Shown here: in pieces, positions 606-17,298 of the stretch
Position numbering within the stretch: position 1 is the stretch's first letter
How the letters are laid out: each line of letters begins with the position of its first letter
NCBI RefSeq assembly: GCF_000754095.2
Contig: NZ_JQSG02000007.1
Span: forward strand, 133 to 32,905
Reading direction: 5' to 3'
Length of the DNA: 32,773 bases
DNA from: Acidihalobacter prosperus
GTDB lineage: Bacteria; Pseudomonadota; Gammaproteobacteria; DSM-5130; Acidihalobacteraceae
Position numbers and translations under genes: made by a program
The notes under the pieces: generated by a model
Database searches by the model: none
What the model saw: only the letters and a program-made list of their open reading frames with translations
Told to the model about the DNA's origin: nothing

Positions 606-1369
606 GCTGTGTCCTCCGTCTCAGCCTCGGGGCCACAGAACAAGGCGATAGCCTGATCGAGATTTCCGACCATACGTCGGAGATCGTTGCGAAGAGAGGA
701 TAATCCGCCGTATGTCTTGTTGAGTCCGAGGTGTTGTACCGCCCGTATGGCCCTTCCGATTTCCTCGCTGTCAGTAAACTCCGTGAGCTTTACGCCAGCG
801 ATTCTCTCGATCGTGGCAATGTGATCCATGACACGCTCATATTTTTGAGTTCGGAGTTTGATTTCTCGCTCGATCGTTGTCCGGTCATTTGCGCGCTGCT
901 TTTCAACTTCAGCCCTGACTGCTGCGCGCACCTCATTCTCATCAATGCCACTTGCGCGTCTCAGCATGGCGGCTACGAATTCGCGGGTTACGGGCTTAGA
1001 TTCGAGCTTTGGTGCAGCCGCGACCTGACGCAGAGCGTCCCCCTTTTGGACCTCATACTGACCCCAGGTAGGAGGTAGTTCACCCTCTCGTATGACCCCT
1101 TCCGGGGCTACGATCCACCACCGATCGCAATAACGCTGGACCGGTTCGGATTTTTCCGGATTCTTGAGTTCTCGTATCCAATCACTGCGGCTGACCTTCA
1201 CCTCGAAGCCGTGGATTTCCAGCCCGCGGCTGGGCCACAAATTGATAGATACCGCATCAGCCCATCGGCGTTGATTGGCGCCGGTGCCATCTGCAACCTC
1301 AAAGAAGATGCCCCACTCGGGCGCACAGAAGCGTGCGCGAAGCGCTGCTTTTACCTCGTGCGTCTTCAT
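602..1369 (-). CDS. PD-(D/E)XK-like (MmcB-type) phage protein
   Basis: This 255-residue protein has a nuclease-like N-terminal half. Asp38 precedes a strand carrying the GFEVKVSRSDW motif, in which E56-x-K58 forms a (D/E)xK signature as in MmcB-like and restriction-endonuclease-fold proteins. DRWWIVAPEGVI follows. The C-terminal half (about 130-255) is helical and charged, with coiled-coil-like stretches rich in Arg and Glu. The start overlaps the end of the cytosine methyltransferase gene (ATGA at 1366-1369). Placement between a DNA methyltransferase and a DUF1643 gene suggests DNA processing or repair. Activity is not shown by sequence alone; it could be a non-catalytic relative. Confidence 0.6.
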   Translation of the reverse strand: MKTHEVKAALRARFCAPEWGIFFEVADGTGANQRRWADAVSINLWPSRGLEIHGFEVKVSRSDWIRELKNPEKSEPVQRYCDRWWIVAPEGVIREGELPPTWGQYEVQKGDALRQVAAAPKLESKPVTREFVAAMLRRASGIDENEVRAAVRAEVEKQRANDRTTIEREIKLRTQKYERVMDHIATIERIAGVKLTEFTDSEEIGRAIRAVQHLGLNKTYGGLSSLRNDLRRMVGNLDQAIALFCGPEAETEDTA

Positions 1370-3180
1370 GCTTCATCTCTCTGCGCGACGGTCAGAGCGA
1401 CAGCCATATTCCGGACCCAAATAGGTGTCGCTGACAGTTGGAACGTCTCGCCGGTCTGCGCGAGCAAAAGGGTGCGGCCGAATTCTTCGCCGATGGCTCT
1501 GGCCGCTGCCGGCGGTACCGCGTTGCCGATGCGTTCGCGCCAGGCCTGATCCGAAAGTCCGTCGAGCTCAAGTTGCTCTTCGGGGTCTATCAGGGACTGG
1601 ATTGCGGCCAGTTCGAGGGTCGTGAAGGGACGATGCCAGGTTCCGTCCAGCGCGCGGATGATCGTCGCCAGCTTTTCGTCCGCCGCCGGCAGTGCATCAA
1701 TGCGGGGATATGCGACGCCCCATCGGCCATTGTCATGGCTGGCCGCCGCTGACACGGCGCCGCTGTGTTCATTCCACGGCACCACACCGTAATGCCCACC
1801 GGTGAGGTAGTGATCGCCTTTCTCACGGCGCATGCCCGGGCGCGGGTCCGCCACTGAAAAAGCGCCTTGACCCGTGGTGCTGCCGGACAGGACCGTACCT
1901 GCAGGGCGGTTCCAGTCGGTTACGAGATACTTCCCGAAGCTCGGGCCAGCGCGGCGAGGATCGGCAACCGCATACGCACCGGAATCGTCGCCTCCGATAA
2001 CGGTACCGGTATGGCTGTCGAATCGAGTGACCGCGTACTTGCTGAATAAAGGCCGGTTCGGCGGCCGGGGATCGGCGACGCTGCCGTAGCCGCTGCCGGC
2101 GGCGAGTTTGCTGGTGATCGTTGAGCTATGTTCGGCCCAATGGCGGACACCATAGGCATGGCCGTCGTTCCAGAGAGAGGACTGACTGAATCGAGGGTCG
2201 GCAATCGAGAATGCGCCGTTGGTCGGGCCACTTTCGCTTTGCACCACACCGGTAGGCTGATCCCATCGACGCACGCCCATATAACCCGATCGATATTCGG
2301 GCACGATCAGATAGTCGCGCAGCAAACCGTCCTCAACCTCAAGACGGTTCAGGCTGCGCCAGTCTTTTCCGGCCTCGACGAAGGCAAGGCGGACCCAGGT
2401 TTTCCATGCCAACCGGGGAACCCGATGCATAGAACCGGCGGACATATCGCCCGGGAGCGGCATGCGTCCAAGGACCGTTCCGACCGCCTGTAGATCGCGT
2501 TTCGGAGGTTCGTAGATAAACGGCGGCACCTTCTCAAGGTGCCGAGCGACCAGAAGGAAGCGCTTGCGGCGTTGAGCAAGCCCGCCTAGCTCACCGCAGT
2601 CGTGCGTCGTCTCTGCTACGGCGTAGCCATAGGCAGAAAGCAAGTCGCCGATTTAATCGAGCAGGAATCTACCACGGGTCCCGATTCTCGGGACGTTTTC
2701 AAATGCGACCAATTCCGGCGGGTCATCAGACCAGGCCTCCAACATCAGCCAGATACCGCGTAACGTCAACCTGTTCAGGGCCTGGTATTTGTCGGTGCGG
2801 CTCTTGCTCTCTGCAAGAAGCCCGGAGAATCCCTTGCACGGCGCGCTGAGGAAAACCGCGTTCGGTCGTTCGTTACCGGCGGCACGGCGAATGTCGGTCG
2901 GCGTACATTCGCGCCAATCAGCCGGCGGTTCGCAATCATGGAAGGCGATGTACTGGTCCCGATCGAACATGTCGAGGACGGTGCCTTTCACGCCAGCGGC
3001 ATGCTCGAAGTCCGCGATGGCGGCGGGGTCCACGTCGACGCCACCTATGCAGCGCCAACGTCCCTCAAGGTTCCCGACCCGAGGGGTGGCTTGGTTGAAA
3101 CCTTTGGCGCCACCGCCAAGGCCGCAGAACAAGTGAAAGTGGCGCATTTCGCGCCGTTCGACAGTCTTATGTTGTTCCAT
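1366..3180 (-). pseudogene. C5-cytosine DNA methyltransferase, split by one in-frame TAA
   Basis: Two pieces in the same frame form one methyltransferase. The 5' piece (2653-3180, 175 aa) has motif I (FCGLGGG, residues 18-24), the catalytic motif IV as SAPCKGFSG (Cys115) and motif VI (FENVPR, about 160-165). It then reads RFLLD and hits TAA at 2653-2655. After the stop the frame continues IGDLLSAYGYAV, then motif VIII (QRRKRFLLVAR) and motif X (RIGNAVPPAAARAIG) to 1366. No frame change is needed, so a single sense-to-TAA substitution is the simplest reading. The separately listed start at 2643 is a TTG and would lack motifs I-VI. A region of degenerate ADPR repeats (about 1702-2286) lies where the target-recognition domain is expected. 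Probably inactive unless read through. Confidence 0.85.
1702..2286 (-). repeat. Degenerate ~37-46-residue repeats in the methyltransferase target-recognition region
   Basis: Counting from the TTG at 2643, ADPR occurs at residues 148-151, 190-193, 227-230 and 265-268, and AYPR at 311-314. Each is preceded by a similar unit: Y/V-x-V-xx-W or F, then GTV or a variant, then G-A-x-S-V-ADPR. The units differ at the DNA level, so this is an old protein repeat and not a recent tandem duplication. In cytosine methyltransferases the variable target-recognition region lies between motifs VIII and X, which is where these repeats sit. Confidence 0.65.
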
Positions 3181-3347: not shown

Positions 3348-4238
3348 TCAGTCATGGATGGCTGTGCGAAGGCGACAAGGCGGCGACTCGACCAGATAGG
3401 TTCTGTCGACCAAATCGCCAGACATCTGATTGCCGAACACGGTCCAGCCCGGTGCGGCGCGGCGTCCGAACAGTTCGAGGTAGGGACCGTCGTTGGCCTG
3501 TTCGATCATGGTTCGAAACGCTTCCGGCTTGGCGCTGTGCTTGCCGCGCGGAAAGGTCACCGCACTATGCAGGTTGCGGGCTTTCCACTGCGGCTTGCCT
3601 TTTCGGCCGAGTAGCAGCAGTTCGTGATTCAATCGCCAATAATTGCCCAGCCCCATCTGCGGCTTAACCCACACCGCCTGACTTTTGAAGTCGAATCCCC
3701 AGGCATCCATGATGTCGAGCGCATCTTTCAGGAACCCGTTCGTTGTCCAGAGATGAAGAAAACAGTCGGTATCCGCGAGATCGGGTATCGGCATGGCGGC
3801 GATATCCGCGCTGCTCATGGTGTCATAGTGGTTGTCGGTCGCCGCGCGGGTGCCCTGGTTGTCGTAGCGCCAGGGCGGATCGGCGTAGATGACGCGGTAT
3901 TTGCGCTGTTCGCGGATGAGCACGTCGAGACTGGATACGTGGCGGCATCCGTTTTGAGCGACACGTTCGCCGTCCGTCGGGCGAGGCTTTTGCGAAGCCT
4001 TGCCGCGTACCGGATTCATGTCGAAGCCCGTCGCTTCCAACGCTTCTCGGCGCTGGGCGCTGAGCGTGCCATGGTTGTATCGGCGCCGCTGTTCGTTAAG
4101 CCAGCGTCCGAGCGGGTCTATTTTCCCGGATGAATCGCGTACGGGAAGGTGGAGTTTGCCGTTGGCGAGCCGGGTTGCGGCCGCGGAGGCCTCGCCCAGG
4201 CGCAGGTGCCAGTGCATGTCGTTATCGATATCCTGCAT
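3348..4238 (-). CDS. MT-A70 family adenine methyltransferase with N-terminal helicase-associated-like segment
   Basis: This 296-residue protein has the MT-A70 catalytic core from about residue 112: YRVIYADPPWRYDN with DPPW at 120-123, then FLHLWTTNGFL, the WVKPQMGLGNYWR segment and LELFGRRAAPGW near the end. The family transfers methyl groups from S-adenosylmethionine to N6 of adenine in DNA or RNA. Residues about 38-76 (GKIDPLGRWLNEQRRRYNHG and the following LSAQRREALEATGF) resemble the helicase-associated (HA) domain, a small helical module, here fused in front. The gene is first in a minus-strand cluster with the broken cytosine methyltransferase, 167 bp upstream of it. No restriction enzyme is visible beside it, so a phage-type orphan methyltransferase is likely. 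Confidence 0.88.
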   Translation of the reverse strand: MQDIDNDMHWHLRLGEASAAATRLANGKLHLPVRDSSGKIDPLGRWLNEQRRRYNHGTLSAQRREALEATGFDMNPVRGKASQKPRPTDGERVAQNGCRHVSSLDVLIREQRKYRVIYADPPWRYDNQGTRAATDNHYDTMSSADIAAMPIPDLADTDCFLHLWTTNGFLKDALDIMDAWGFDFKSQAVWVKPQMGLGNYWRLNHELLLLGRKGKPQWKARNLHSAVTFPRGKHSAKPEAFRTMIEQANDGPYLELFGRRAAPGWTVFGNQMSGDLVDRTYLVESPPCRLRTAIHD

Positions 4239-4363: not shown

Positions 4364-5017
4364 TCAGAAGACGATCTGTCCCCCGAGACCGATGCCATAG
4401 CTGGCGCTGCCGTTGCTCAGGCCCTTGTCGAAGTAGAGCTGGAAACCGCTGCCCTGTGGGTTGATGTTGTGGTTCCAGGCGACGATCAGGTCCGCCGGTC
4501 CGGCGTAACCCTTCTGCTCCGACTGCGAACCGGAGAACATCGCGGTGATGATGTTCGCCTGCGAACGCGGCAATACATAGCTCGCTCCGAAGTCGTAGGT
4601 GGCGATGTTCTGCAGGTTCGAGTTCGCCGGCTTGCCGACCAGGCGATAGCCGATGTGGGCGAACGGGAAGGTGTAATACCCCGCGCGGGCGTCGAAACCC
4701 AGGCCGGCCTCGTAGTCGTTCTGCCCGGTGCCGAGTCCGGCGGAATGCGAGGCGGTGGCGATCTTGACCTTGGCATAGGGATGGATGCCGATGCGGCCGT
4801 CGCGTGCGTGGGTGGCCGAATAGCGCACGGTGAACCATGTATCGCCCATGCCGGAGGCCGAGCGGGTCTGCGTCTGCGTGCCGCCGCGGCTGGACAGGTT
4901 GCTGCCGGCGAGGGTGGCTCCCTGCGGGAGCCCGCTGACAGACTCGTAGGCCAAAGTCATTTTGACCCGTAGACGACCCTTGCGGTACTGGGCGTAGATC
5001 GGAACGTAGAAGATATC
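4364..5017 (-). pseudogene. Outer-membrane transporter-like beta-barrel protein, 5' end lost
   Basis: The frame runs open from 5017 down to a stop at 4364. It reads DIFYVPIYAQYRKGRLRVK before the first ATG (4960), then GDTWFTVRYSATH, HPYAKVKIATASHSAG, GTGQNDYEAGLGFDARAG, FAHIGYRLVGKPANS and a C-terminal strand ending GGQIVF. The alternating pattern, the GLGTGQNDY element and the terminal Phe match outer-membrane 'transporter' proteins of the MetA-pathway/DUF type. Relatives begin with a signal peptide and about 20-30 more residues before the IFYVP strand. These are missing because the 85-bp repeat starts exactly at 5018. No promoter or signal sequence remains, so it is probably non-functional. 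Confidence 0.7.
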
Positions 5018-5102
5018 GGGTATCCGGAAGATCGTGTTGATTTGAGATGGAGTTGAGATGACGCATCTTGGCGCCTAAACCGGAATATTGTGTGTATGTG
5101 TG
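5018..5102. repeat. Left copy of an 85-bp inverted repeat
   Basis: These 85 bp, starting GGGTATCCGGAAGATC, are identical to the reverse complement of 17299-17383. Beyond 5102 one mismatch is followed by a further CGAC match, then similarity ends. The outer 24 bp also occur at 11505-11528 beside the ISL3 transposase, and a 21/23 match lies at 23740-23762. I read it as the end of an insertion element; its outer edge truncates the adjacent outer-membrane gene. Confidence 0.85.
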
Positions 5103-5193
5103 TCGACACTGCCACACCCGGCATGAATAGGGTTTGATGCTTGATTGTGCGGATTTCAGCTACACGATTTATAACAATTCACCCAGAGTATGA

Positions 5194-5598
5194 TCAGGCG
5201 TGTGAGTGCTCTGTATCAGAAAGTTGACTTAAAATAGGGCACGAGTCGCCTCCATCCGAGCAACACAAATGGCTAAGGCGTGTGAGTTCATCTTTGAATG
5301 CAGACAGACTGGAGATCTTGTGCTCTATTTCTGCAAGCTTTGCCTGAGTCAGCCCCAGGACCTGCCGACGCGCTTCATTGGGTGCTGAGCGCAACCGCAA
5401 CAGAACACGGATGTCATCCAGGCTAAAGCCGGCACTTTTGGCTCGACGGATAAACATCAGCTGTTCGATATCGTGACCATCGTAGTCACGTCGCCCAGCG
5501 GCATCGCGCCCGACGGCATCCAGCAAGCCTATTTTGTCGTAGTAACGCAGTGTCTCGGGACTGAATCCCGAGCGCCTTGATGCCTCTCCAATTTTCAT
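5194..5598 (-). CDS. MerR-family metal-responsive regulator
   Basis: This 134-residue activator begins MKIGEASRRSGFSPETLRYY, the MerR winged-helix DNA-binding domain. A long dimerisation helix follows, then a metal-loop candidate LCCSDGGDSCPIL near the C-terminus (a CC-x6-C arrangement as in ZntR/CadR relatives). At the position that is Cys in divalent-metal sensors (ZntR, MerR, PbrR) and Ser in monovalent sensors (CueR, GolS), the aligned stretch reads NEARRQV with Arg. A short C-terminal His pair (EHSHA) is present. I chose the ATG at 5598 because a strong AAGGAGG lies just upstream, inside the longer possible frame from 5616. It is divergent from the ATPase operon and faces a matching operator. 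Its metal cannot be assigned. Confidence 0.9.
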   Translation of the reverse strand: MKIGEASRRSGFSPETLRYYDKIGLLDAVGRDAAGRRDYDGHDIEQLMFIRRAKSAGFSLDDIRVLLRLRSAPNEARRQVLGLTQAKLAEIEHKISSLSAFKDELTRLSHLCCSDGGDSCPILSQLSDTEHSHA

Positions 5599-5746
5599 CC
5601 ATACCTCCTTCGGCAAACCGGGGCGACTCAGCTATCACCTCTAGAATCGCCAATGACGCGAGATAACCCGTGAGGTCTTCACCAGTGCGAGATCTAGCGT
5701 TTGTCAGCTGAGTGTGTCTGGCAGCGAAATATCATGCCACAAAGCC

Positions 5747-5777
5747 TTGACTTGGAGTTAACTCCAAGCGTTATAAG
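5747..5777 (+). promoter_or_regulatory. MerR-type promoter and operator of the YPC-ATPase operon
   Basis: TTGACT (5747-5752) and TATAAG (5772-5777) are separated by 19 bp, the overlong spacer typical of MerR-activated promoters. The spacer region carries a perfect 18-bp palindrome, CTTGGAGTTAACTCCAAG (5751-5768). It sits 33 bp upstream of the first operon gene, between it and the divergent regulator. This is as strong as promoter evidence gets from sequence alone. Confidence 0.9.
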
Positions 5778-5810
5778 TCACCAGGAGACTCGGGTAAAGA
5801 GGTATTCGAC

Positions 5811-6056
5811 ATGCAGTCGTTCGAACTACAAATCGGTGGCATGCACTGTCATGGCTGTGCGCTGAGGCTTGAACAGGTGTTAAAGAGGGTTTCCGGCGTC
5901 AGCGCGGTTAAGGTTTCCTATCAGGATGGTCAAGCTCGATTGATCATCGATCCCGATGCGACATCGCCGGAGAAGCTGGTGGCATTGGTGACCGACGCTG
6001 GATTTACGGCAACGACGACATCGGAGGGGCGGCGTCATGACGAACATCGCACTTGA
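5811..6056 (+). CDS. Heavy-metal-associated (CopZ-like) small protein
   Basis: This 81-residue protein has one HMA fold. The metal motif is GMHCHGC (Cys13, Cys16), followed by the usual amphipathic helix ([19 protein letters not shown]) and the C-terminal VTDAGFTA strand. Such proteins bind soft metals through the two Cys and pass them to P1B-type ATPases in the cytoplasm. The extra His within CxxC (CHGC) is less common than the usual small residues. It is the first gene after the MerR-type promoter and overlaps the ATPase start by 20 bp, which fits a chaperone-pump pair. The metal is not known. Confidence 0.88.
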
Positions 6057-8508
6057 TCCTTCATCAGACTGGCACCCTTGGCGAGACGAGCCCACGCAAA
6101 CACCGCCACTGCGTCGCGTCAGCGCCCATATCGGCGGTCTGCACTGCTCGCTTTGCACGGGAACGATCGAGCAATCACTTGGCAAACTGCCCGGTGTAAA
6201 GAAAGTCGCCGTGAGCCTGACCCACGAACAGGCCTTGGTCGAATACGATCCAGCGCTGACGGATCCGGCAGTCTTGATGGGAACGCTTGGCGATATCGGC
6301 TACGAACTACAGGATCCGAGGCGGGTCGAGCCGTTCGAAGTGCAGGAACGCCGTCTCGCCAATGAAGGTGCCCGATTCCTGCTGGCGCTTTCCGCCAGCC
6401 TGATCGCCGTGGCTTTGATGGCGCCGTCACAGGGCTGGCAACTCGTCCTTTCCGGGCTCGTCTATGCCACCCTGCTTCTTTTCTCATGGACGCTGCTCAA
6501 GCCGCGCGGATGGATACGCGCGCTCTCCGGGACGGCCACACTAGCGCTTCTCGGCTTGCTCATCTACGCATTGAAGTTGGATGGCCTATTACAGACCTGG
6601 GCGGCACCGTTGACCGCGGCCTTGGCGCTAGGCGTGTTTTTAGGCCCTGGCGGCAATTTTTTGAAGATTGCCTGGCAGTCCCTGCGGCGAGGCATTCTCA
6701 ATCAGCATGTATTGGTCGAAATCGGCGCTGTAGCGGGCATCATCGGCGGGGCCCTCGGTTTTGTTCTACGGCTGCCCCATTACCCTACGGCGGCTTTTTT
6801 CGGGGTCTCGGTGATGGTGCTGACCTATCATCGCTTTTCCGAGTGGCTTTCATTGATCGTGAAGACGCGCAGCTCCCAAGCGGTGCGAAAACTGCTCGAT
6901 TTGACGCCGCGTACGGCGAGACGAGTGGGAAAAAATGGACACGAAGAAACCGTGCCGGCGGAGACGCTTGCGATCGGTGATCGCATTCGTGTGCGCCCCG
7001 GTGAAAGGATCGGTGCCGATGGCCGGGTGCTGGAGGGGCATTCTTCGGTGGATGAATCGCTGTTGACCGGCGAGCCCCTTCCTGTTGAGAAAACGACCGG
7101 GACAAGTGTCGTCGGTGGTGCCATCAACGGGCCAGGCATGCTGCTCGTCGAAGTAAGCGCTGTAGGTGACGACAGTTTCCTGGCTCAAGTAGTCCGCAGC
7201 GTCGAGGAATCGCGCGCACTAAAGCCCGGTCTGCTGCATCTGGTGGACCGTACCCTACGCATTTACACGCCGCTTGTTCTGACCCTTGCCTTGCTGGCCC
7301 TGCTAGGGTGGCTGCTGGCAACCTGGCTGATGAGTGGCACACCGGATGTGGAGCGAGCGGTCTTCGCTGCGCTTTCCGTACTGGTCATGGGTTATCCCTG
7401 TGCGGTCGGGATTTCGGCACCTTTGTCGATCGTACGCGGGGCTGCCGATGCAGCAGAGGCTGGCGTGCTGATGCGTACGGGCGAGTCTTTCCAAGCGTTC
7501 CGCCAGACAACGCTCGTAGTGTTCGACAAGACCGGCACACTTACCGTCGGGCGTCCGCAGGTAGCCAAGCTCATGCCAGCCTCAGGAGTGGACGAGATGC
7601 ATATGCTGAGCCTGGCGGCATCGGTCGAGATGGGCTCGGAGCATCCGCTTGGGCATGCGATCATAAATGAGGCACTGGAGCGCGGGGTCGCTTTGGGCGA
7701 GGCGTCGGATTTCAAGGCGATAGCCGGCTTGGGCATAACAGCCAAGCTCGGTGATACCCAGGTCCAGATTGGTAATGCCGAATGGTTGCGAACGCAACAG
7801 ATCGCCATTCCTGATGATAAGGCCATCAAGAGCGCGCAAGCGCTGGGGCATACGGCCGTTGGCGTGGCGGCTGCGGGTCTTTTCCAAGGCTGGATCCTGC
7901 TGGGTGATGCCTTGCGCGAAGATGCCCGCGAGACGATCCAGGCACTGAATCGTCACGGCATCCGCGCTTTGATGTTGACGGGGGATCACCCGCATACAGC
8001 GGAAGCGGTCGCTAAGCAATTGGGCATAGAAGAAGTCTATGGGCGTGTCCTGCCTCAGGAGAAGGCCGAGCGCATCCGGCAATTTCAGGCGTCCGGTGCC
8101 CATGTCGCCATGGTAGGCGACGGCATCAATGATGCGCCTGCGCTGATGCAAGCCGACACGGGGGTTGCCATGGGGTCCGGCACGGATATCGCGATCGAAT
8201 CGGCCGATATCGTCGTTCTCAACAACCGGCTCTCATCGATTCTGATCGCCTGGCAGATCAGTCGTCGGAGTTATGCGCGTATGGTCCGTAATGTTTTGCT
8301 GGCATTCGCATTCAATGGCCTTGGCATACCTGCGGCGGCGACAGGACTCGTGAACCCCGTGTGGGCCATGACGGCAATGGCAGTGAGTGTTACCGCGATT
8401 TTCGTCCACTCCTTATGGGGCAAACCTGCCATATTTTTTTCAGCCGTCGGCAGTGTCGGCACGAAATCTGCTGTGCTATCGCAAGATGCCATGAGTACTC
8501 CAAGATGA
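6037..8508 (+). CDS. P1B-type heavy-metal ATPase with a YPC transmembrane motif
   Basis: This 823-residue pump has an N-terminal HMA domain (GLHCSLC, Cys37/Cys40), paired membrane helices, the actuator loop with LTGEPLPV, the phosphorylation site DKTGT (Asp497), the P1B HP motif (GSEHPLG) and the hinge GDGINDAP (about 694). The ion-path motif is GYPCAVG (Y453-P-C455), not the CPC of Cu or Zn/Cd pumps. Helix 7 has AFNGLGIP and helix 8 [12 protein letters not shown], altered from the YN and MSS signatures of P1B-1 copper pumps. GGAGGGG lies 6 nt upstream of the ATG. It probably exports a soft metal from the cytoplasm; the motif set leaves the substrate open. It overlaps both neighbours, so it is part of a tight operon. 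Confidence 0.92.
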
Positions 8509-9371
8509 AAACAATTCGCTTTCGTCTTGATAACGATGCGGTGCGTATCGGCGTCACATTGATTGCACTGGCCCTGCTGTTCTTTGCGGGGGAATGGGTT
8601 TATCACACGGTTGGTTGGCTATTGTTTAAAGCCCAGGGAACGCCGGTCGTGCCCGCTCCGCTGATCCTGGCCATTGGGGTTCTTGGTGGTGCCGCCTCAT
8701 TTTTTTCGCCTTGTAGTCTCGTGATTACACCCTCCTTCCTCATGTATTTCGTGGGCAATAGGGCTTCAATGTCTGTTGACATGAAACAACATGACCGCAG
8801 CCTGTTCATGGCGTCATTACTGATCGCATTAGGTATCATCGGTTTTTACGGCGTCGCCGCCGTGCTGGTCGGCATGATTGGCCCCGTAATCTATCGGTTC
8901 CTGATCTACTTGATTCCTGTAGTCGGCATACTTTTCGCAATCTTGGGCTTTGCGCTGTTGATCGGAGGTGCCGCCGCATTGAGTGGTGCAGCGCGGTTTT
9001 TACCGGGACGGCGCTACTATGATCGGTTGCTGGCGGGTGCGGCGCAGGGACGGCGGCGTGATCTTCTGGGTTTTGGCGTGGCCTACGGAGCGGCCGCACA
9101 CACGTGCACCTTGCCCGTTTTTTTGGGGGTCATCATGCTACCGCTCGCCGCAGGTGTCTACTGGCTTGCCGCCTTGGCCGTGCTGCTCTATGGAACTGCC
9201 ATGGCAGGCTTGATGCTCCTCATGCTTGCACTGGGTCAGCCCGCCGTATTGGCCGTGCGACGCCATATCGGTCTCTATTTGCAGCCGGCTACCGGCATTC
9301 TGTTTCTATTGACCAGTGCGTACTTATTTTATTATTTCCTGTTGAATTTCGGGCTTATATCGGGAATCTAA
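8505..9371 (+). CDS. CcdA/DsbD-like transmembrane protein
   Basis: I place the start at the ATG at 8505, which overlaps the ATPase stop (ATGA), and not at the earlier in-frame start inside the ATPase. The 288-residue product has about seven hydrophobic helices. [14 protein letters not shown] (Cys70) matches the PC-x-x-x-x-P element of CcdA/DsbD helix 1, and [13 protein letters not shown] (Cys201) lies in the position of the second conserved half. These families carry electrons across the inner membrane by a Cys pair, keeping periplasmic thiols reduced. Cotranscription with a metal ATPase and a secreted cupredoxin-like protein suggests that it keeps a periplasmic metal-binding Cys reduced, which is inference. 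A TauE-like transporter is a less likely alternative. Confidence 0.78.
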
Positions 9372-9385
9372 GGGGGGGAGAAATC

Positions 9386-9775
9386 ATGCATCAATCAGTG
9401 CGCATCCGTCTCGCGCCGGCCGCCGCATCACTACTGGTGGTATTTGCTTTGCCAGCGATAGCGGCAGCATCCGCCCCATCTGGTACGACGCCGGTTTTTA
9501 AGTTGATAGAAGGTAAAGCCTGGTCGTCCTATCCCTACTCGCCTCCGGTTCTCCATATTCCGGCAGGCAAGACCGTCGCACTCGAACTCACCGACAACAT
9601 CGGCGGCTGCGGTCTCGTGACCGTATTCCCGCATCTAGGTCCTCAGGGGAAAACGGTGTCCATCCGCGTGCCGGTCGGAGACACGAAAAGAATCTTGATA
9701 CACGCTCCCAAGCCAGGGAAGTACGTTTATCACTGTTCTGAAAACATGTGGTATGGAGAGATCGTGGCCGAATGA
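9386..9775 (+). CDS. Secreted cupredoxin-like protein
   Basis: I take the ATG at 9386, preceded by GGGGGGGAG; the longer frame from 9104 lies inside the previous gene. The 129-residue protein starts with a signal peptide (positively charged MHQSVRIRLAP, a hydrophobic core, then AIAAASA at about 25-31). The mature part is beta-rich: VLHIPAGKTVALELTDN, GGCGLVTVFPHLG, then VPVGDTKRILIHAPKPG and YVYHCSENMWYGEI. The last element resembles the C-terminal Cu ligand loop of cupredoxins, with H116, C117 and M121. Cys75 and H83 may complete a site. It is probably a periplasmic copper-family metal binder acting with the pump. The ligand assignment is inferred. Confidence 0.75.
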   Translation: MHQSVRIRLAPAAASLLVVFALPAIAAASAPSGTTPVFKLIEGKAWSSYPYSPPVLHIPAGKTVALELTDNIGGCGLVTVFPHLGPQGKTVSIRVPVGDTKRILIHAPKPGKYVYHCSENMWYGEIVAE

Positions 9776-10148
9776 TTCGATGTGACTGACGAATCCATCA
9801 GCGACTGCCTCGTAGCCTAGCGAGGATGAACGTTATCGTGCCCGCGACCAGACACTGGAAGCTTTTGTAAGATTGGCGGCCTGGTGCACGCAGCAGCCAC
9901 CGGGGCATGCTCGCACGGGATGGTCTAGCCCGAATGTTTCATAAACCCGCCAATTCTGCCCAGCATCTCACTTGCATGTCTGGCTTTTCAGCCTGCTGAG
10001 TCAGATCGGTACCGCAACGTTGCCCTGGAAAGTGTACGCGCTCGCCGGTCACGGAGCCTGCAGCCGGAATTTCAGCGTCGAGGCGTGCCGAGGCCCGCGG
10101 GGCTTGCCCGGATGGATGCGTTTCGCGGGTTACACACGGCGGTGTGTT
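9776..10148. other. Gene-free spacer after the ATPase operon
   Basis: 373 bp between the cupredoxin-like gene and the end of the decayed IS1380 transposase. Short frames here show no family resemblance. No convincing hairpin with a T-run was seen. Part of it is probably the outer end of the IS1380 element, whose terminal repeats I could not identify. Confidence 0.4.
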
Positions 10149-11403
10149 TCAGGGTATGGCTGGAGGTCGGGCGAGATAAAGCAATTCGGTCACCCGGTGC
10201 AACAAGTCTTTTCACCGGGCAGCTGCTCGGCAGGTCCAACTTGATCCGATCCTTGTACTGCACGACGCGCACCGCCCGCTTGAACAGCTTCTGGATAAGG
10301 GTCATGGACTGCGCTTTCACCAGTTCAGTGTGGCACAAGGTGTTCTCACGCAGACTGTGGATCAGGGTGTAGGCGCACACAGGCGTAGAACAGGCGCATG
10401 TGATGGCCGAAGAAGGTGTGATTGGACGTTCGATCACTGGCCAGGTCGTTTTTGATGGCCTTGATGAAGTTCTCATCCTGGCCCCGGGCGTAGTATAAAT
10501 CCCAGTACAGCGTCTCAGACGTCGGGTTGGTCAGCGACGTCTCGACGAAACGCGGGTTGTCTCCTAAGCCCATCACCTCGGCCTTGAACACCAACCGGTG
10601 GGCCTGAGCTCGCCGTTGCTCATGCAGGGCCCGCGCTTTCGCGAGCAAGGGCTTGGCCGCGGGCACAAGCGCCGGGTTGCCGGCCAGGCCGAAGAGGAAA
10701 TCCATCTGCGCATCCTCTTCGCACAGGGCCATCAATTCCGGGTTGGAGAAATGTCCATCCCCGCGCAGGACGATGTGGGTGTCCGGCCAGGCTTGACGCA
10801 GCCGGCGCACGACCCGACCGATGATAGCCGCATTCTCACGCCCGGTGGGGCGCTTGCCGGGACGCAGCACCGCCGTGATGAGTGCGCCGGAGAGCCCCTC
10901 GAAGAGAAACAGCGGCCGGTAGCAGTGGCTGCCATAATAGGGGTTGTAGAAGGCCAGTTCCTGTTGCCTATGGGTGCGGTCGTCGGAATGGTCCATGTCC
11001 AGGACAATCACCGAAGGCGGGTCGGCGTAGCGAGCAATGAAGGCCTCAACCAGGGTCTTGGCCAGACGATAGATGTCCTTGCGGGTGAGCCCATTCTCCA
11101 GGCGCGAGAACGTGGGCCCGGAGGCCAGGTCGTTGTCGGTATCCAGCGGCGCGCGCCCGAGTGCGAGCTTGAAGGCCGGGTCTTGGCGCAGATCGTTGGC
11201 GTCGTTGCCATCGGCATAGCCGCAGGCGGTCTGGAAAATGCGCTGGCGCAGTAGATCGGCCAGGCAGTCGATCAATCCAGTTTGCCGATCGACACCGTGC
11301 AGCAGGAGTGCGCCGAAATCACTCGATACAGCACCTCCCTCGAAGTCGGCACGGACGGTGAAACCGGCCAGGGTGGGGAAACAGAGCTGAGTCGGGGCGA
11401 CAT
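10149..11403 (-). pseudogene. IS1380-family transposase, frameshifted
   Basis: The protein reads, across frames, CFPTLAGFTVRADFEGG, SSDFGALLLHGVDRQTGLID, RIFQTACGYADGNDANDLR and SVIVLDMDHSDD with the catalytic Asp region. It continues VLRGDGHFSNPE and YYARGQDENFIKAIKNDL, all IS1380 (DDE group 1) landmarks. The main open piece is 10346-11275. Near 10375 the frame changes: the C-terminal part (AYTLIHSLRENTL, KLFKRAVRVVQYKDRIKLDLPSSCPVK) continues in another frame. Near 10215 it changes again to LLHRVTELLYLARPPAIP with a stop at 10149. No usable ATG/GTG remains for the N-terminal frame. It is therefore a dead copy with at least two indels. Exact element ends were not found. Confidence 0.85.
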
Positions 11404-11504
11404 CACTTATGGGCGGTCTCGGTTAGGCTTCGCCCGAAGCGTTATTATCGTAAATTTTTATTATATCAGTTAGTTAAGCGCCCGCCCTTCTATTTATGAA
11501 AAAT

Positions 11505-11528
11505 GGGTATCCGGAAGATCGTGTTGAT
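11505..11528. repeat. 24-bp terminal-repeat-like sequence beside the ISL3 transposase
   Basis: These 24 bp, beginning GGGTATCCGGAAGATC, are identical to the outer 24 bp of the 85-bp repeats at 5018 and 17383 and lie 6 bp beyond the transposase stop codon. That is the expected place for an ISL3 right terminal repeat. No matching opposite end occurs within about 200 bp upstream of the transposase start. Confidence 0.75.
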
Positions 11529-11534
11529 ACGGGT

Positions 11535-12851
11535 CTAGAGATCGCCGTTTTCAATCAAGGATATCAATGTTGATATCTGAGCGCCGTAGTTGGTTTCTCG
11601 TTCGATGTCGATAATCCTTGAAAAGGTTTTGTACGCGAACATCGAGTCTTCCATCGTTGCTCTTCGCTTGGGATATTTGGGTTTCTTGACTGTATGTACC
11701 CCTTCGGTGAAAAGGATCTTTGCCCGAAGCGCCTCGAAGCTATAGCCGCGCCCAAGACGATTCATCACCCGAATCAGGTTGTTCAGACTTTCCGTATAGG
11801 CGTTGGTGATCGGGTGATCGAAGTAGTTGAAGATCTCCGTGTGCCAGTTACCGATGGCCGTGAGAATCGGCTTGAAGGCATCTCTCATCTCATCGGATAG
11901 ACTCCCACACCAGATCTCATAAGCACTTTCCGCGTCAGGCCGGTTGTCCATATCCCAGATGCCATAAAAAGCTTCCTTAGCATCGTAGGCCGCCCCCAGC
12001 GATGGGTAGTTGACAGTCCAGCCCGAGAGCTTCAGGTAGTCTTCGTCGGAGATGTCACGGCGGCGTTTGAGCAGCACGAAACGATCGTGCATCAAGCCCC
12101 TGCGCTGTCGTGAGGTAAGTTCCACTCGCAAGTTCTTGCGTACAGTGTCCAGACACTGATTCGCCATCCGCACGACATGAAACTTGTCGATGACGATTCT
12201 GGCCTGTGGGAATACCGTGTTGACGGCGTCGCGATATGGATTCCACATATCCATTGCGACATACCGCACCTTTTCCTTATCGGGTAGCGTTTGCAGGCGC
12301 TTGATCACGGTCGGCTTGTTGCGGTTAGGCAGCACCTCGACGATGGTTTGATGCTCGATATTCGAGATCACGCAGCGCGGTTTCTTGACGATGTAGATCT
12401 CGTCGATGCCCATCCATCTCGGCGTCTCGAACCGGACTTCCTTCTCCAACCGGTTGACATAGGCGCGAAAAATGTTGCGGATGCTCTTTTCGTCGAAGCC
12501 TACGTCCTCGGCGATACTGGCAAAGGTGCGGCGTAGTGACTCACGCTCGATGTATTGCACCAGTCGTCGCGTCGCTTGCCGGCGATCATGCATCTCGGGC
12601 AGCGGTTCCATGAAAGTCTTGCCGCATTGTTTGCAGCGTAACCGTCTGCGGTCTACCCAAATACCTACCCGCTTGCCGCGCACGGGGGCGTCCATGAAGA
12701 GTTGGCGCTTGCGTCCGAAGCCCACGGTATGAGAAGAACCGCAGTCAAGACAATATTGGCTGGAGCCGTTGCTGGTTGCCTCAATGTGATAATCATGTTC
12801 GGATTCTTGAACCGAGTCCTGCTGTAAATACTTGAGATTCAACAAGTCCAT
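11535..12851 (-). CDS. ISL3-family transposase
   Basis: This 438-residue protein is of normal length for the family. It opens MDLLNLKYLQQDSV, then has a zinc-ribbon pair CLDCGSSH and CKQCGKTF, and a helix-turn-helix around IAEDVGFDEKSIRNIF. The DDE catalytic core follows: GIDEIYI (first Asp), VAMDMWNPYRDAV (second Asp), KFHVVRMANQCLD, and NAYTESLNNLIR with the Glu. No frameshift or stop is seen, so the protein may be functional. It is flanked by dead genes on both sides. Confidence 0.95.
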   Translation of the reverse strand: MDLLNLKYLQQDSVQESEHDYHIEATSNGSSQYCLDCGSSHTVGFGRKRQLFMDAPVRGKRVGIWVDRRRLRCKQCGKTFMEPLPEMHDRRQATRRLVQYIERESLRRTFASIAEDVGFDEKSIRNIFRAYVNRLEKEVRFETPRWMGIDEIYIVKKPRCVISNIEHQTIVEVLPNRNKPTVIKRLQTLPDKEKVRYVAMDMWNPYRDAVNTVFPQARIVIDKFHVVRMANQCLDTVRKNLRVELTSRQRRGLMHDRFVLLKRRRDISDEDYLKLSGWTVNYPSLGAAYDAKEAFYGIWDMDNRPDAESAYEIWCGSLSDEMRDAFKPILTAIGNWHTEIFNYFDHPITNAYTESLNNLIRVMNRLGRGYSFEALRAKILFTEGVHTVKKPKYPKRRATMEDSMFAYKTFSRIIDIERETNYGAQISTLISLIENGDL

Positions 12852-12929
12852 CTAGAGCATCCCATGCGAGCAGGCATCGTCAGCCGCGGCATGCAGCCAC
12901 GTGAAGGCTGCCATTTTCCCCAAACGAGC

Positions 12930-13218
12930 CTAATGTCTGGGTGCCAGCATGATAATGGCCACCCCCATTAGGGCGACGAGGTTGCCGATGACATCCCACA
13001 GACCGAGACGTATCCCTTCGCCCCTCATAGCCAACCGATAGTGACGGCAATGTATCCGCCGCCATACGCGGCGTAGGTACGCCCAGCCGCCGTAGGGTGA
13101 AGGGTCAATAACCAAGCGAAAACAGCGAGCGAGGCTGCCGCTGGCAATAGCAGCCAAGGATCTCGGCCACGGCCGTGTGGCCACGAACAGGACAGAATGC
13201 GTAACAAGTTGAGTTCAC
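12930..13218 (-). pseudogene. ynfA: ynfA (UPF0060 small membrane protein), decayed
   Basis: Pieces of the four-helix UPF0060/YnfA family are scattered over three frames: LNLLRIL near 13200, VAEILGCY near 13160, [27 protein letters not shown] and [16 protein letters not shown] (13025-13160), then GIRLGLWDVIGNLVALMGVAIIMLAPRH ending at 12930. Short insertions occur around the ATG-proximal part. The segment that normally joins LGCY to PWLLLPAA is gone, and CTTGGCTGCTATT serves both reading frames there, as expected after deletion between short direct repeats. A further frameshift lies at about 13025. It directly follows the permease stop, so it was probably the tail of that operon. Confidence 0.8.
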
Positions 13219-13346
13219 TGGCGAGCAACGGCAGGTCGTTTCCAGGTGCGGGCATGAACGTCCCCTGGCTGCGACCGAATACGCGGAAAACCTTCCTGAG
13301 GATTGAACCCGGATGATCCATATCGCGTGCCGCGAGAGGCATCGCC

Positions 13347-14528
13347 TCAGGCAGCCGGTTGTGCCGGACTCAGGCCGGGCAGGTGGCGGCGCAGGGGGCG
13401 CAGGGCCACAGCCGCGAGCAGAAAGGCGCAGCCCAGTTTCGCCCAGCCTGGCAGCAACTCAGCACTGGCCTGGATCTGGGCCGTGATATTGATGTTCAGG
13501 GCATGCACCAGGGCATCGGTCAACAGACCGAATCCAATAGCGCAGGCGCTGATGCCGCCGACGTAGATCAGCACGAAGCGCCAGCCGAATACCTTGCGCA
13601 AGGCGCCTACCGTGCCCAGATTGGTTGCCGGTCCCGCCAGCAGGAATACCAGCACCGCGCCGGGCGAGACCCCTGCCAGTAGCATAGCAGTGGCGATCGG
13701 CGTGGATTCGGTCGCGCAGACGTAGAAAGGCACACCGACCAACAGCATCAGCAGCATCGCCATCCAGCCACTGCCGTAAGCACCCAGTGCAGCCGGCGGC
13801 ACCAATGTCATGGTTAAACCCGCCAGCGCGAGGCCGAGCGCCATCCATAGACTGAACTCATCCAGTAGGTCGGTGACCGCATAGCGAATCCCCGCCATGC
13901 TGCGCCACCCGAGCGAACCCGTGTTCGTATTCAAAGCGTGTGCGGTCGATTCGTAGCCGCAGGACGAATCGTTGCAGTCCGCTTGTGCAATCCTCGCCGG
14001 CTTGACTTCAGTACTGCACGCACTCGAACACGTTTGTGATCCGCAGGCGTCGATTCCGACCCGATCTGGGGCAGAACCCGGCACCCGCCTTGCCTCCGGT
14101 TCGGCGAGATTGCCCAGCAGGCCAGTCACGATGGCGCTCAGGATGGCGCTGATCGGACGAACGATGGCCATGAACGGCCCCAACAGCGCGAACGAAATGG
14201 CCACCGAGTCCACGCCTGTCTCCGGGGTGGCGATCAGAAATGACAGGGTCGAGCCTCGCGAAGCCCCGGCACGGCGCAAACCCAGCGCGACCGGTATCAC
14301 ACCGCAAGAACACAGCGGCAGTGGCGCGCCGATCAGCGCGGCTTTGGTGACCGGCCACAAACCGCGACCGCCCAACCAACGCCCCAGCCGGTCTTGCGGC
14401 ACCCATGCCTTGATCAGGCCAGCGCATATCAGCCCGAGCACCACCCAAGGCGCGGCCTCCAGGTACAGCGTCCAAGTGTTCGCGATCCACTGTGCGAGGG
14501 TGTGAAGAGTGGTGTCAATCAGGTTCAT
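13347..14528 (-). CDS. SO_0444-type (DUF318/ArsP-like) metal efflux permease
   Basis: I start at the ATG at 14528 ([15 protein letters not shown]); the upstream frame overlaps the regulator. The 393-residue product has two bundles of membrane helices, each with the family hallmarks. The first is [25 protein letters not shown] followed by [11 protein letters not shown]. The second is [18 protein letters not shown] followed by [12 protein letters not shown] cytoplasmic loop between them is Cys-rich ([12 protein letters not shown] and [10 protein letters not shown]), a likely metal-binding segment. Members of this family next to ArsR regulators are described as Cu/Zn efflux transporters; arsenic/organoarsenic permeases are more distant. 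The start overlaps the ArsR stop by 14 bp, so the two are co-translated. Confidence 0.88.
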
Positions 14529-14919
14529 CAGCGGTTTCCACACACATGCCGCGCACCGCCGCATTCAGGGCGGGCAACGGCGACTCGTCATTCCAGCGGT
14601 AATAGACCATCTTGCCCGCGCTGCGCATGCGCAGCCAGCCCTGGCCGCGCAGAATACGCAGTTGCTGTGAAGTCGCCGCTACGCTCAGGCCGAGCAGGTG
14701 AGCCAGATCGCAGACGCACAACTCCGCCTCGCGTAAAGCGCGCAGGATCATCAAACGCTTGGGATTACCCAGCATTTTGAACAATTCGGCGCTGGCCGCC
14801 AGCTGTTCCGCCTCGGTCGCCAGAGCAGCCTGAACCCGGGTCACGGTGCGCGGATGAAAGCATTCCAGGGCGCAGACGTCCGCTTCGGTTGCAGTAGGGG
14901 TAGAGGGTTTATGTTTCAT
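14515..14919 (-). CDS. ArsR/SmtB-family metal-sensing repressor
   Basis: The ATG at 14919 gives 134 residues. The winged helix is clear: LFKMLGNPKRLMILRALRE, then the alpha-3 metal motif ELCVCDLAHLL, the recognition helix SVAATSQQLRILR and the wing MRSAGKMVYYRW. Additional Cys occur near the N-terminus (ALECFHP) and the C-terminus (RGMCVE), so an alpha-3 Cys site with N- or C-terminal partners is likely, as in CadC/CmtR-like sensors. It is translationally coupled to the permease gene and faces an AT-rich dyad just upstream. It should repress its own operon until the metal binds; which metal is not shown. Confidence 0.9.
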   Translation of the reverse strand: MKHKPSTPTATEADVCALECFHPRTVTRVQAALATEAEQLAASAELFKMLGNPKRLMILRALREAELCVCDLAHLLGLSVAATSQQLRILRGQGWLRMRSAGKMVYYRWNDESPLPALNAAVRGMCVETADEPD

Positions 14920-14922
14920 GTT

Positions 14923-14938
14923 TTCGAATATAATTGAA
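14923..14938 (-). promoter_or_regulatory. Operator-like dyad upstream of the ArsR-permease operon
   Basis: TTCGAATATAATTGAA (14923-14938) is an imperfect palindrome (arms TTCgAAT and ATTgAA) that ends 4 bp before the ArsR start codon region. AT-rich dyads with TTC/GAA ends in this position are usual for ArsR/SmtB autoregulation. It probably overlaps the promoter. Confidence 0.55.
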
Positions 14939-15062
14939 TGAGTCTTGGCACGCAAGCATGAACCGGACACTCAAAGCACCGCACGGCATACAGCCGGCAG
15001 CGGCTCGAATGGAAGGAATCGGGCGCTTGGGGCATCCATGATTGCATGATGGAGTCAACACG

Positions 15063-15540
15063 ATGAAAGCAATCGGCTCCAGGCACTACCTGCCTCTGGA
15101 CGTATGGCTCATGCCCCTAGCCTTGTCGCCAGCGGGCTTGGCCGTAGCTGCACCTGCGCCGCGCAATTACTTGAGAGGCGCTCTCGACCCTTATCTGCTC
15201 TGCGGATGCATGCGAACAACCCGTGGATTGGTATCCCTTGGGGGGGGCGGCGGCGCTGGAAAATGCTCGACGGGAAAACAAACCGATCTGTCTATCCATC
15301 GGTTATCTGGCCTGTTACTGGTGTCATGTGGCCGACCGCGAGTTGTTTTCCGATTCGGCTATCGCCCGCCTGATGAATCGCTGGCTCGTGAATATCTTGG
15401 TCAACCGAGAGAAGCGCCCGGACATCGACCGCGTCTGTCAACTCGCCGCAGTGGTCATGAACGGACAGGGTGGCTGGTCCAGTAACATTTTCCTCGCCTC
15501 TAATCTGAAACCGTTTTCCGCTGCCGTATATTTTCGCCGC
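15063..15540 (+). pseudogene. DUF255 (thioredoxin-like, YyaL-type) protein, N-terminal fragment with frameshifts
   Basis: The ATG at 15063, after GGAG, starts a signal-peptide-like segment (WLMPLALSPAGLAVAAPAP), then NYLRGALDPYLL in frame. The next conserved piece, HANNP, is in a second frame, and VDWYPLGGAAALENARRENKP with IGYLACYWCHV is in a third. Restoring the frames gives the start of a DUF255 protein with its CxxC-like motif (ACYWC). After QGGWSSNIFLASNLKPF the match stops at about 15540, while family members continue for hundreds of residues. It has therefore lost its 3' end as well as having at least two indels. Confidence 0.75.
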
Positions 15541-15654
15541 ATATCAGCGCATTCGGTCAGTCGGATTTCTCCAGGTGCCATGTCGCATCCTTCAACCACG
15601 TTCAGATTTACTGATAATCCTGAGGTATCTCTTAAGGTTAACCAATCATGGACC

Positions 15655-16683
15655 TCATCCTGCCTCAGGCAGCGGCCATTTGGTGTGACGAATCCCCTGC
15701 ATGGGAATCCGGTATTCGGTCTGGAAATGGTCCACCTGGAGTGTCACATGATCGATATCAAAATGCTCAGCAAGCAGTTCACTCAGGCGTCGACGCACTG
15801 CATGGCACTCTCCGGAGCAAGGCTTATCGCCGGATATGAGGACGTGGGCGGATAGGGCAGTAAAGCCAGATGTTATCTCCCAGACATGCAGGTCATGCAC
15901 CTCGAAGACACCAGGATCTGCAGCCAGTGTGTGACCGATTACATCCGGGTCCACTCCCTTGGGGGCGGCTTCGAGAAAGACGCGCCCCGATTCTCTGAGC
16001 AGACTTACCCCCGCACGCAGCATCAAGGTCGCCACCACTAAGGCAGCGAGAGCATCGAAACGGTAGAAATGTGTCCAGTAGATCAACGCGCCGGCAATCG
16101 CGGTGACAATGAAGGCGTACAGATCGGTGAGGATGTGCTGAAAGCTGCCTTCGACGTTGAGACTTTCCCGATTGGCCTTGCTCATTGACCACGTTGCCAA
16201 CAGGTTAACGACAATACCCACCAGGGCGATCCAGGTCACGAGAAGTCCATCGACCGCAGGTGGCCAGATCAGGCGTCGCACCGCCTCAATCAGGAACCAA
16301 CCAGCCAATGCTACCAATGTTAGGCCGTTGATCTGGGCACTGAAGATTTCAGAGCGTTTGAAGCCGAAGGTAAATCGCCCTCCTGCAGGCCGCTGTGCCA
16401 AACGCATTACAGTCAGCGACATCGCGATTGCGCCCGCATCGGTGAGCATGTGCCCTGCATCAGATATAAGTGCCAGCGAGGAGGCCATCAGACCCGCGAC
16501 GACTTCGACTGCCATAAAGGCCAGCAGCAACGCTAGAGCGATCGTCAGATAGCGCTTGTCAGCATCCGGACCGATCGAATGGGTATGGTGGTCATGCGCA
16601 TGCCCATGGTTATGGCGGTTAGAGTCATGTCCGTTCGCATCGTGTTCATGAGAATGGGTATGGGTATGCATCACGTTCGGCAC
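15655..16683 (-). CDS. CDF-family zinc/cadmium exporter (ZitB/CzcD-like)
   Basis: This 342-residue protein starts with a His-rich tail (HTHTHSHEHDANGHDSNRHN), a cytoplasmic metal-binding segment. Six membrane helices follow. Helix 2 carries SDAGHMLTD and helix 5 GSFQHILTD; both are HxxxD, the four-residue site of Zn/Cd-selective members (manganese members use DxxxD). The C-terminal cytoplasmic domain has VFEVHDLHVWEITSG and IDHVTLQVDHF, typical of the dimerising metallochaperone-like fold. It works as a proton antiporter at the inner membrane. It lies 77 bp downstream of the SmtB-like repressor on the same strand, so zinc-induced coexpression is likely. Confidence 0.93.
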   Translation of the reverse strand: MPNVMHTHTHSHEHDANGHDSNRHNHGHAHDHHTHSIGPDADKRYLTIALALLLAFMAVEVVAGLMASSLALISDAGHMLTDAGAIAMSLTVMRLAQRPAGGRFTFGFKRSEIFSAQINGLTLVALAGWFLIEAVRRLIWPPAVDGLLVTWIALVGIVVNLLATWSMSKANRESLNVEGSFQHILTDLYAFIVTAIAGALIYWTHFYRFDALAALVVATLMLRAGVSLLRESGRVFLEAAPKGVDPDVIGHTLAADPGVFEVHDLHVWEITSGFTALSAHVLISGDKPCSGECHAVRRRLSELLAEHFDIDHVTLQVDHFQTEYRIPMQGIRHTKWPLPEAG

Positions 16684-16760
16684 CTCTCCGAGTAGCTCGC
16701 CCAGGGCGAGGCCGCGTGCTTGGGCACCGCACCTGGCATGAGTTGCGTTGATTTCTATTA

Positions 16761-17072: not shown

Positions 17073-17102
17073 CGAATAGTTCCACGTCGAATCAAAGTAA
17101 CG

Positions 17103-17121
17103 ATTGAATAGTTGTTCATAT
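17103..17121 (-). promoter_or_regulatory. SmtB-type operator candidate
   Basis: ATTGAATAGTTGTTCATAT (17103-17121) is a near-dyad with TGAA/TTCA half sites of the 12-2-12 kind bound by SmtB, CzrA and ZiaR. It lies 31 bp before the repressor start, where it would cover the promoter. Confidence 0.6.
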
Positions 17122-17298
17122 ATTAATGATGAAGCTCTATGATATCAACCGCCCCGACGGGAAACCCGACGCCGGGCATCTCTACATGGATGCTGGGGGA
17201 GCTGGTCTGGCCCTTCCGTGTACTGGCTTGTCACAAATCAGAAGGCGCTGCGGACTTACTGGTGAAACGGGAAGTTCGGTTGCGTCTTGGATAGTCGC
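17122..17298. other. Short spacer with one unassigned open frame
   Basis: An open frame starts at 17126 (MMKLYDINRPDGKPDAGHLY) and runs into the repeat at 17299, ending at 17326. I recognise no family. It could be the 5' stub of a gene cut off by the repeat, or chance. No other structure is seen. Confidence 0.3.

Follow-up and report, generated by a model that had tools for sequence, protein, structure and literature searches.

A 32,773-nucleotide stretch of Acidihalobacter prosperus DNA (contig NZ_JQSG02000007.1; hereafter the window) carries at 5194-9775 a metal-export unit made up of a divergent merR gene and genes for an HMA-domain metallochaperone, a P1B-type ATPase with YPC in place of CPC, a CcdA-like membrane protein and a cupredoxin, and the whole operon lies inside a transposable element that the first-pass annotation had missed. 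We interpret this locus as a mobile unit that exports a soft, thiol-loving metal, with Cu(I) or Ag(I) the most likely, and that includes a redox-tended cupredoxin, and assign this reading a probability of about 0.52. More tentatively, at somewhat short of even odds, we propose that a transmembrane thiol relay re-reduces a CupA-type cupredoxin, often within one polypeptide, and would couple cytoplasmic reducing power to extracytoplasmic metal capture after export by a new P1B subfamily (YPC/FN: helix-7 Tyr lost, helix-6 Tyr gained). Of the new points, the fusion of CupA-like and CcdA-like proteins is the strongest, and the substrate is the weakest. The unit is real, recurring and mobile, and is best described as a metal export operon in variant form; searches of open-access literature yielded no account of the four genes as one system, in agreement with the first-pass view that it was not a described system.

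In the mechanism that we infer, the MerR regulator would sense the metal and switch the operon on, and the HMA protein would pass the metal to the YPC-type pump for expulsion. The CupA-like cupredoxin, at the outer side of the inner membrane, would then capture it between C75 and C117. The CcdA-like protein would carry electrons from cytoplasmic thioredoxin via C70 and C201, and these electrons would keep or reset C75 and C117 as thiols so that the cupredoxin could bind again. Alternatively, they could serve a cupredoxin that, like CupA in vitro, first reduces Cu(II) to Cu(I).

Each part of the operon is an open reading frame at the position given in Table 1, and the identities of the MerR, HMA and P1B ATPase proteins are backed by Pfam and NCBIfam matches. 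The compact layout described initially is borne out, with a 20-bp overlap between the HMA and P1B genes, a 4-bp overlap between the P1B and CcdA-like genes, and a 14-bp gap before the cupredoxin gene. Control by MerR, also proposed at that stage, is supported by the sequence between merR and the HMA gene, where a TTGACT-N19-TATAAG promoter overlies an 18-bp palindrome without mismatches, as is usual for promoters of the MerR family. With its 19-bp spacer this promoter falls outside the range of the sigma-70 scan and is absent from the dyad-scan list; the sequence was examined, and the palindrome tested, by coordinates. The window regulator misses the CueR equivalog cut-off of NCBIfam (104.8 bits vs. 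147.4). It has both loop cysteines in common with CueR, whereas Ser77 of CueR is replaced by Arg, and the Cys of divalent sensors is also absent.

Recurrence of the gene set across many further contigs puts it beyond chance. A scan of genome contigs with the CcdA-like gene recovered 28 loci, two of which (L074 and L075) match ordinary CcdA and were set aside. An MGYPCA pump is encoded in 25 of the remaining 26 loci (L070 has a CPC pump instead) and a cupredoxin in 23, the CcdA-like frame reaching the contig end in the other three (L071, L072, and L073). A MerR gene is present in 20, one of them weak (L060, 23 bits). These 26 loci are not all independent, as they include the near-identical pairs L050/L051, L052/L053, L054/L055, and L056/L057, and the CcdA-like match of L073 is weak (40 bits). 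In 13 of the 23 loci, a single frame encodes the CcdA-like protein with the cupredoxin as its C-terminal domain; the cupredoxin is separate in nine, and L068 holds an interrupted fused gene. Record titles place the loci in Rhodanobacteraceae, Lysobacterales, Acidiferrobacteraceae, Burkholderiaceae, and Castellaniella, with further loci in bins titled Acidobacteria, Bacillota, Actinomycetota, and Marsarchaeota, for which binning errors are possible. Many sample names presumably refer to acid mines or contaminated aquifers.

More broadly, YPC pumps repeatedly have a partner of the CcdA family nearby, and the cupredoxin is special to one set. A protein of another CcdA branch adjoins the pump in L089, L093, and L095 and lies ~4 kb away in L088. 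Among seven YPC plasmid loci, picked for spread out of 25 listed hits and including two near-copies (L099 and L102), six have an annotated ccdA, and in four of the seven a thioredoxin-like gene stands beside it near the pump. The CcdA-like protein itself has no relative in viral contigs or plasmids (one CcdA match at E 0.8), and the cupredoxin has only two weak matches in plasmids, one of them annotated nirK. The CcdA-type proteins of L099, L100, L101, and L089 read FNPVA in place of SPC, and so are without the first Cys; a CxxC thioredoxin-like gene is found nearby. A profile search of the phylum with the CcdA-like protein reached 72 of 398 genomes, but all matches beyond the own genome had E-values of 1.4e-7 or weaker; they were taken as general CcdA kin and not used.

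The initial description of the pump as having YPC for CPC, with altered helices 7 and 8 (F-N for Y-N and M-A-V-S-V for M-x-x-S-S), holds. The protein passes the P1B model TIGR01525 (541.9 bits, cut-off 346.25) and TIGR01511 (447.2, cut-off 397) but fails the CopA equivalog NF007952 (446.5, cut-off 1316). It departs from the signature of P1B-1 Cu+-ATPases (CPC in transmembrane helix (TM) 6, YN in TM7, and MxxSS in TM8), with YPC, FN, and MxxSV at these places. Across 44 aligned frames, 42 contain GYPCA, while L066 10126-12153 and L089 11620-13563 encode ATPases of other kinds; within the 42, some of them incomplete (L094 and L068), the motifs NQHVL, LV[ML]GYPCA, and AMxxSV are found in 40, 42, and 41 frames, respectively. 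A quick tree of 67 rows with CPC pumps recovered the YPC pumps as one clade of 43 rows (SH-like approximate likelihood ratio test (SH-aLRT) 100), comprising the 42 rows labelled YPC and L091, which reads MGYPCA and was mislabelled. Relative to a comparison set of 15 CPC pumps, ZntA among them, the first Cys of TM6 is Tyr in 42/42 YPC pumps, the TM7 Tyr is Phe in 39/42 (V, L, or a gap in the others), the second Ser of TM8 is Val in 41/42 (one gap), and an acidic M2 residue, Glu or Asp in 14 of the 15 CPC pumps, is Ala, Gly, or Ser in 42/42.

These four CopA-type membrane positions, which serve as Cu(I) ligand and entry positions in CopA, change together in the YPC clade. CopA (P1B-1) belongs to the same superfamily and neighbours the clade in the tree; the YPC pumps keep its TM6 Cys after Pro, TM7 Asn, TM8 Met, and first TM8 Ser, but have lost the first TM6 Cys, TM7 Tyr, second TM8 Ser, and acidic M2 residue. 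Because the four positions change together, the YPC pumps offer a sharply bounded set for studying P1B metal choice. The subtype is apparently undescribed: the YPC motif was not found in the literature searched, and where the Cu-ATPases of rhizobia were surveyed, the motifs tabulated are CPC, CPH, and CPD, with YPC absent from the main text as far as available (PMC5552934). An archaeal member of the pump clade, with the motif LGYPCALGMAT, is encoded at 4965-7250 of a Haloarcula plasmid locus (L103), with an annotated merA ~2 kb upstream.

The cupredoxin falls just below the Pfam Cupredoxin_1 cut-off (25.1 vs. 27), and its likeness to CupA emerges from profile and structure comparisons. CupA of Streptococcus pneumoniae (2mry/4f2e) came second in a profile search (E 1.2e-4), behind a nitrite reductase lacking any single stretch that passes. 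The predicted model of the window protein (mean predicted local distance difference test score (pLDDT) 81.7; 74-96 by blocks of ten from residue 31) has CupA 4f2e as its best match (Z 12.7, root-mean-square deviation 1.6 over 87 residues), tied within 1 Z with 4f2f, 4hcg, and 8vuk, and the CupA-like domain of pneumococcal CopA follows at Z 12.1. For a model of a fused form (mean pLDDT 71.4), 4f2e ranked first in Foldseek (E 2.9e-5), and VIA-align placed 4hcg, a Bacillus Cupredoxin_1 protein, and CupA in a tie (Z 12.4 and 12.3). Residues C75, H116, C117, and M121 are invariant in 18/18 cupredoxin rows. In the alignment to 2mry, the copper-binding S1 cysteines of CupA, C74 and C111, correspond to C75 and C117; of the S2 methionines, M115 corresponds to M121, while the M113 position is not Met. 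As in copY-cupA-copA, a cupredoxin with two Cys at copper-binding positions and a downstream Met is encoded together with a P1B pump. Unlike CupA, the cupredoxin described here is probably secreted or is joined in one protein to a CcdA-like membrane partner, has M113 replaced, and carries a His before the second Cys, and unlike the pneumococcal operon, the unit has a MerR-type regulator, an HMA-type chaperone, and a YPC pump. The signal-peptide-like start of the window protein suggests that it is located outside.

The CcdA-like protein of the window has no Pfam or NCBIfam match, and a PDB sequence search with its profile returned nothing up to E 1. Kinship to CcdA emerged when its profile was aligned with that of CcdA relatives (hhalign probability 97.7, E 1.4e-12), and C70, C201, and H199 are invariant in 19/19 CcdA-like proteins. 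The initial reading is corrected in that the protein, which has no curated family match, is judged a distant relative and not a recognised CcdA. It has two conserved membrane Cys and profile similarity in common with CcdA/DsbD carriers, but differs in the His near the second Cys, in having a cupredoxin and not a thioredoxin-like protein as fused partner, and probably in an extra N-terminal helix. One carrier of the CcdA/DsbD type, ScsB, acts in copper tolerance. Hydropathy delineates eight segments, two of them overlapping, and charged loops suggest that the N-terminus is inside; with seven helices, this would place the fused cupredoxin outside. In the fused-form model, helix breaks at 73-75 and 211 lie beside SPC (75-77) and HTC (208-210); the Foldseek and VIA-align match lists for this model were filled by cupredoxins and so hardly address its membrane half.

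The 13 gene fusions are strong, if indirect, support for the view that CcdA-like protein and cupredoxin work together, and since carrier and cupredoxin are fused in many relatives, the carrier may supply electrons to the cupredoxin. The earlier suggestion that the CcdA-like protein could keep the cupredoxin Cys reduced is in keeping with CupA, the copper-binding cysteines of which align with C75 and C117. Small CxxC thioredoxin-like genes adjoin five of the 26 loci (L056 and L057, which are a near-identical pair, L059, L061, and L067). For CupA, the available text of PMC5646241 gives the source of the electrons that re-reduce its copper-reducing cysteines as unknown; a fused CcdA-like partner is a candidate for this role, and natural CupA-like/CcdA-like fusions make the question of cysteine reset testable in one protein. 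In the window, 28031-29245 encodes a TlpA-like redoxin and, next to it, a small membrane protein that matches no Pfam family, and homologues of both adjoin the pump in L059 and L061.

Several observations weigh against a redox-tended copper or silver unit, and two alternatives draw on some of them. The co-occurrence that the first-pass annotation proposed to check is strong when counted from the CcdA-like gene, as described above, but partial from the pump: of 369 genomes of the class, nine match a DNA pattern encoding VMGYPCA, and within the stretches examined, three of which end at contig ends, the CcdA-like gene was found in two of the nine (own genome and G044) and not in the other seven, of which G059 and G061 are negative genome-wide. 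The membrane positions of CopA are altered in the YPC pump, and separate CPC pumps in the host may already cover plain copper detoxification. CupA is placed at the cytoplasmic side in the part of its report available (PMC5646241). No small CxxC thioredoxin-like gene was found in the window by the queries used. Of 33 loci with a regulator gene beside the pump, 21 encode a regulator in which residue 77 is Ser or Arg; in the other 12 this residue is always Cys, as in the divalent MerR/ZntR sensors. Finally, MerA is encoded within 10 kb of 7/36 YPC pumps as compared to 2/111 other P-type ATPases of the same genomes (p 8e-4) and within 20 kb of 12/36 as compared to 5/111 (p 2e-5), whereas multicopper oxidases show no significant excess (4/36 vs. 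6/111). The 147 ATPases in this comparison are the listed matches with the weakest left out, after removal of the own genome's C6 copy and of G763, which is the same genome as G044; 36 were labelled YPC from the loci, the other 111 were not each motif-checked, and the second YPC pump of G560 (C15) was left out. Proximity was counted for MerA rows of at least 400 bits (G763 dropped) and oxidase rows of at least 80 bits.

The MerA excess and the Cys-bearing regulators are among the grounds for the most serious alternative, less likely but a genuine contender, namely that the unit exports mercury, as Hg(II) or mercury-thiol species, with the cupredoxin as an extracytoplasmic trap whose thiols are regenerated by the redox partner and with copper secondary. 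A mer gene (merB, merT family, merA, or mer-type merR) also lies within the 5-kb pump flank in six of the seven plasmid loci, although these were hand-chosen, and the window itself has merA at 24805-26481 and a MerB-like gene. However, resistance islands hold mer genes alongside copper genes, which could explain the mercury link, and some pumps of the comparison set belong to the core genome. Moreover, the cupredoxin resembles a copper chaperone, CupA, the regulator of the unit is of the non-Cys77 kind, and there is no merA within the mobile unit. With the CupA likeness, the CueR-like loop without the divalent-sensor Cys, and a tree position close to CopA in its favour, Cu(I)/Ag(I) is preferred to Hg as the likely substrate by about two to one.

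A second alternative, which seems improbable, concerns the CcdA-like protein, which would be a metal-handling channel or a scaffold placing the cupredoxin by the pump and not an electron carrier, the fusion being a mere membrane tether like the CupA leader. Pfam barely recognises the protein as DsbD/CcdA (DsbD_2 was reached by 1/19 members, E 1.6e-4, and DsbD_TM by 1/19), which also counts against the relay; the His found two residues ahead of the second Cys is invariant; and deletion of the CupA membrane leader raises copper sensitivity, according to the available part of PMC5646241. The invariance of both cysteines in all 19 members and the alignment with CcdA relatives over both regions argue for an electron carrier instead, as do the thioredoxin-like genes adjoining five loci and the pairing, in other YPC loci, of another CcdA branch with a thioredoxin gene.

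The mobility of the export unit is evident from its surroundings. The operon is enclosed by 90-nt inverted-repeat arms that are 99% complementary, and the element recurs in the same genome: besides the window copy, on contig C7, contig C1 has 12,368 bases with one mismatch, and C6 has 11,195 identical bases to the end of the stretch examined, the last 1,129 bases of C6 lying outside that stretch. Three identical genomic copies were considered and rejected, since the ends of C1 and C6 abut the element edges and their outer flanks share a repeat. C1 starts at the outer edge of the element, C6 ends (base 1,111,128) ~45 bp short of its end, and the 8-bp sequence GTTTTTTC is found on the left flank of C6 and the right flank of C1, as an 8-bp target duplication would leave; we therefore read the two pieces as probably one copy split by assembly, which gives two element copies in the genome. 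This repeat, spanning two contigs, was seen for the C6/C1 copy, and no duplication was found at the window copy. In the same-genus genome G001, the pump operon is present at 95% identity, starting exactly at the position equivalent to base 5018, and the permease and CDF genes are in broken frames and inverted relative to the operon. The element shows how such a unit can be acquired whole.

Besides the operon, the element contains an inner ISL3 unit carrying the transposase, SO_0444 permease, ArsR, and CDF genes (Table 1). Between them lies a DDE transposase that is probably a fragment, because the match covers only part of the profile. ISPpu12-type ISL3 elements likewise combine an ISL3 transposase with a CDF passenger gene, czcD, but are 3.4 kb long according to the accessible part of PMC4447125, as compared to 12.4 kb here, with the added pump operon and SO_0444 permease. 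In Acidihalobacter yilgarnensis F5, a 39.9-kb copper gene cluster has metal genes flanked by IS5, IS630, and ISL3 elements, and the main text of that report, as far as available, mentions neither a cupredoxin nor ccdA, unlike the window unit (PMC7760498). That the unit delivers copper to an extracytoplasmic enzyme and is not a resistance system is very improbable: genes for copper chaperones and CcdA-type proteins also act in the assembly of cytochrome oxidase, but the MerR-type promoter, the location on a mobile element that also carries SO_0444 and CDF efflux genes, and the patchy distribution of the CcdA-like gene (3/95 genomes, own included) argue against it.

Table 1 Features of the metal-export operon and of the mobile element that carries it (window coordinates)
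Feature	Position	Strand	Description
merR regulator	5194-5616	-	MerR family; CueR-like metal loop (C..CPI); Arg at position of CueR Ser77
MerR-type promoter	5747-5777	+	TTGACT-N19-TATAAG; palindrome CTTGGAGTTAACTCCAAG at 5751-5768
CopZ-like HMA metallochaperone	5811-6056	+	MHCHGC motif
P1B-type ATPase	6037-8508	+	Single HMA domain; YPC in helix 6, codons 7393-7401
CcdA-like membrane protein	8505-9371	+	Conserved C70 (SPC), H199/C201 (HTC)
CupA-like cupredoxin	9386-9775	+	Signal-peptide-like N-terminus; C75, H116, C117, M121 invariant in its alignment
Mobile unit, 12,366 bp	5018-17383	.	90-bp inverted repeats 5018-5107 and 17294-17383, ending in GGGTATCC
DDE transposase (PF13701), probable fragment	10346-11275	-	Profile positions 58-363 of 435 only; between operon and inner ISL3 unit
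Third copy of 24-bp element end	11505-11528	+	Marks inner ISL3 unit 11505-17383
ISL3-family transposase	11535-12851	-	NF033550, 289.9 bits, cut-off 180
SO_0444-family Cu/Zn efflux permease	13347-14564	-	NF033936, 417.7 bits, cut-off 300
ArsR-family regulator	14515-14970	-	Family match, given over 14515-14922
CDF cation efflux transporter	15655-16683	-	Family match

Several further features of the window and its contig were recorded. A copy of the ISL3 end with three mismatches lies at C7:23871-23894, ~6.4 kb to the right of the element. In the pair at 24805-27197, where merA is followed by the MerB-like gene, the best NCBIfam match of the latter is SaoL (42.7 bits, below the cut-off of 140), ahead of the MerB models. 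Judged from their translations, two adjoining frames at 1366-3180 (- strand) resemble parts of one cytosine DNA methyltransferase, and an adenine-methyltransferase-like frame stands beside them at 3348-4238. At 31144-32643, a hydrolase of the metallo-beta-lactamase fold is encoded together with an ArsR-like regulator that, by its translation, has a rhodanese-like tail, a pair possibly involved in sulfur handling.

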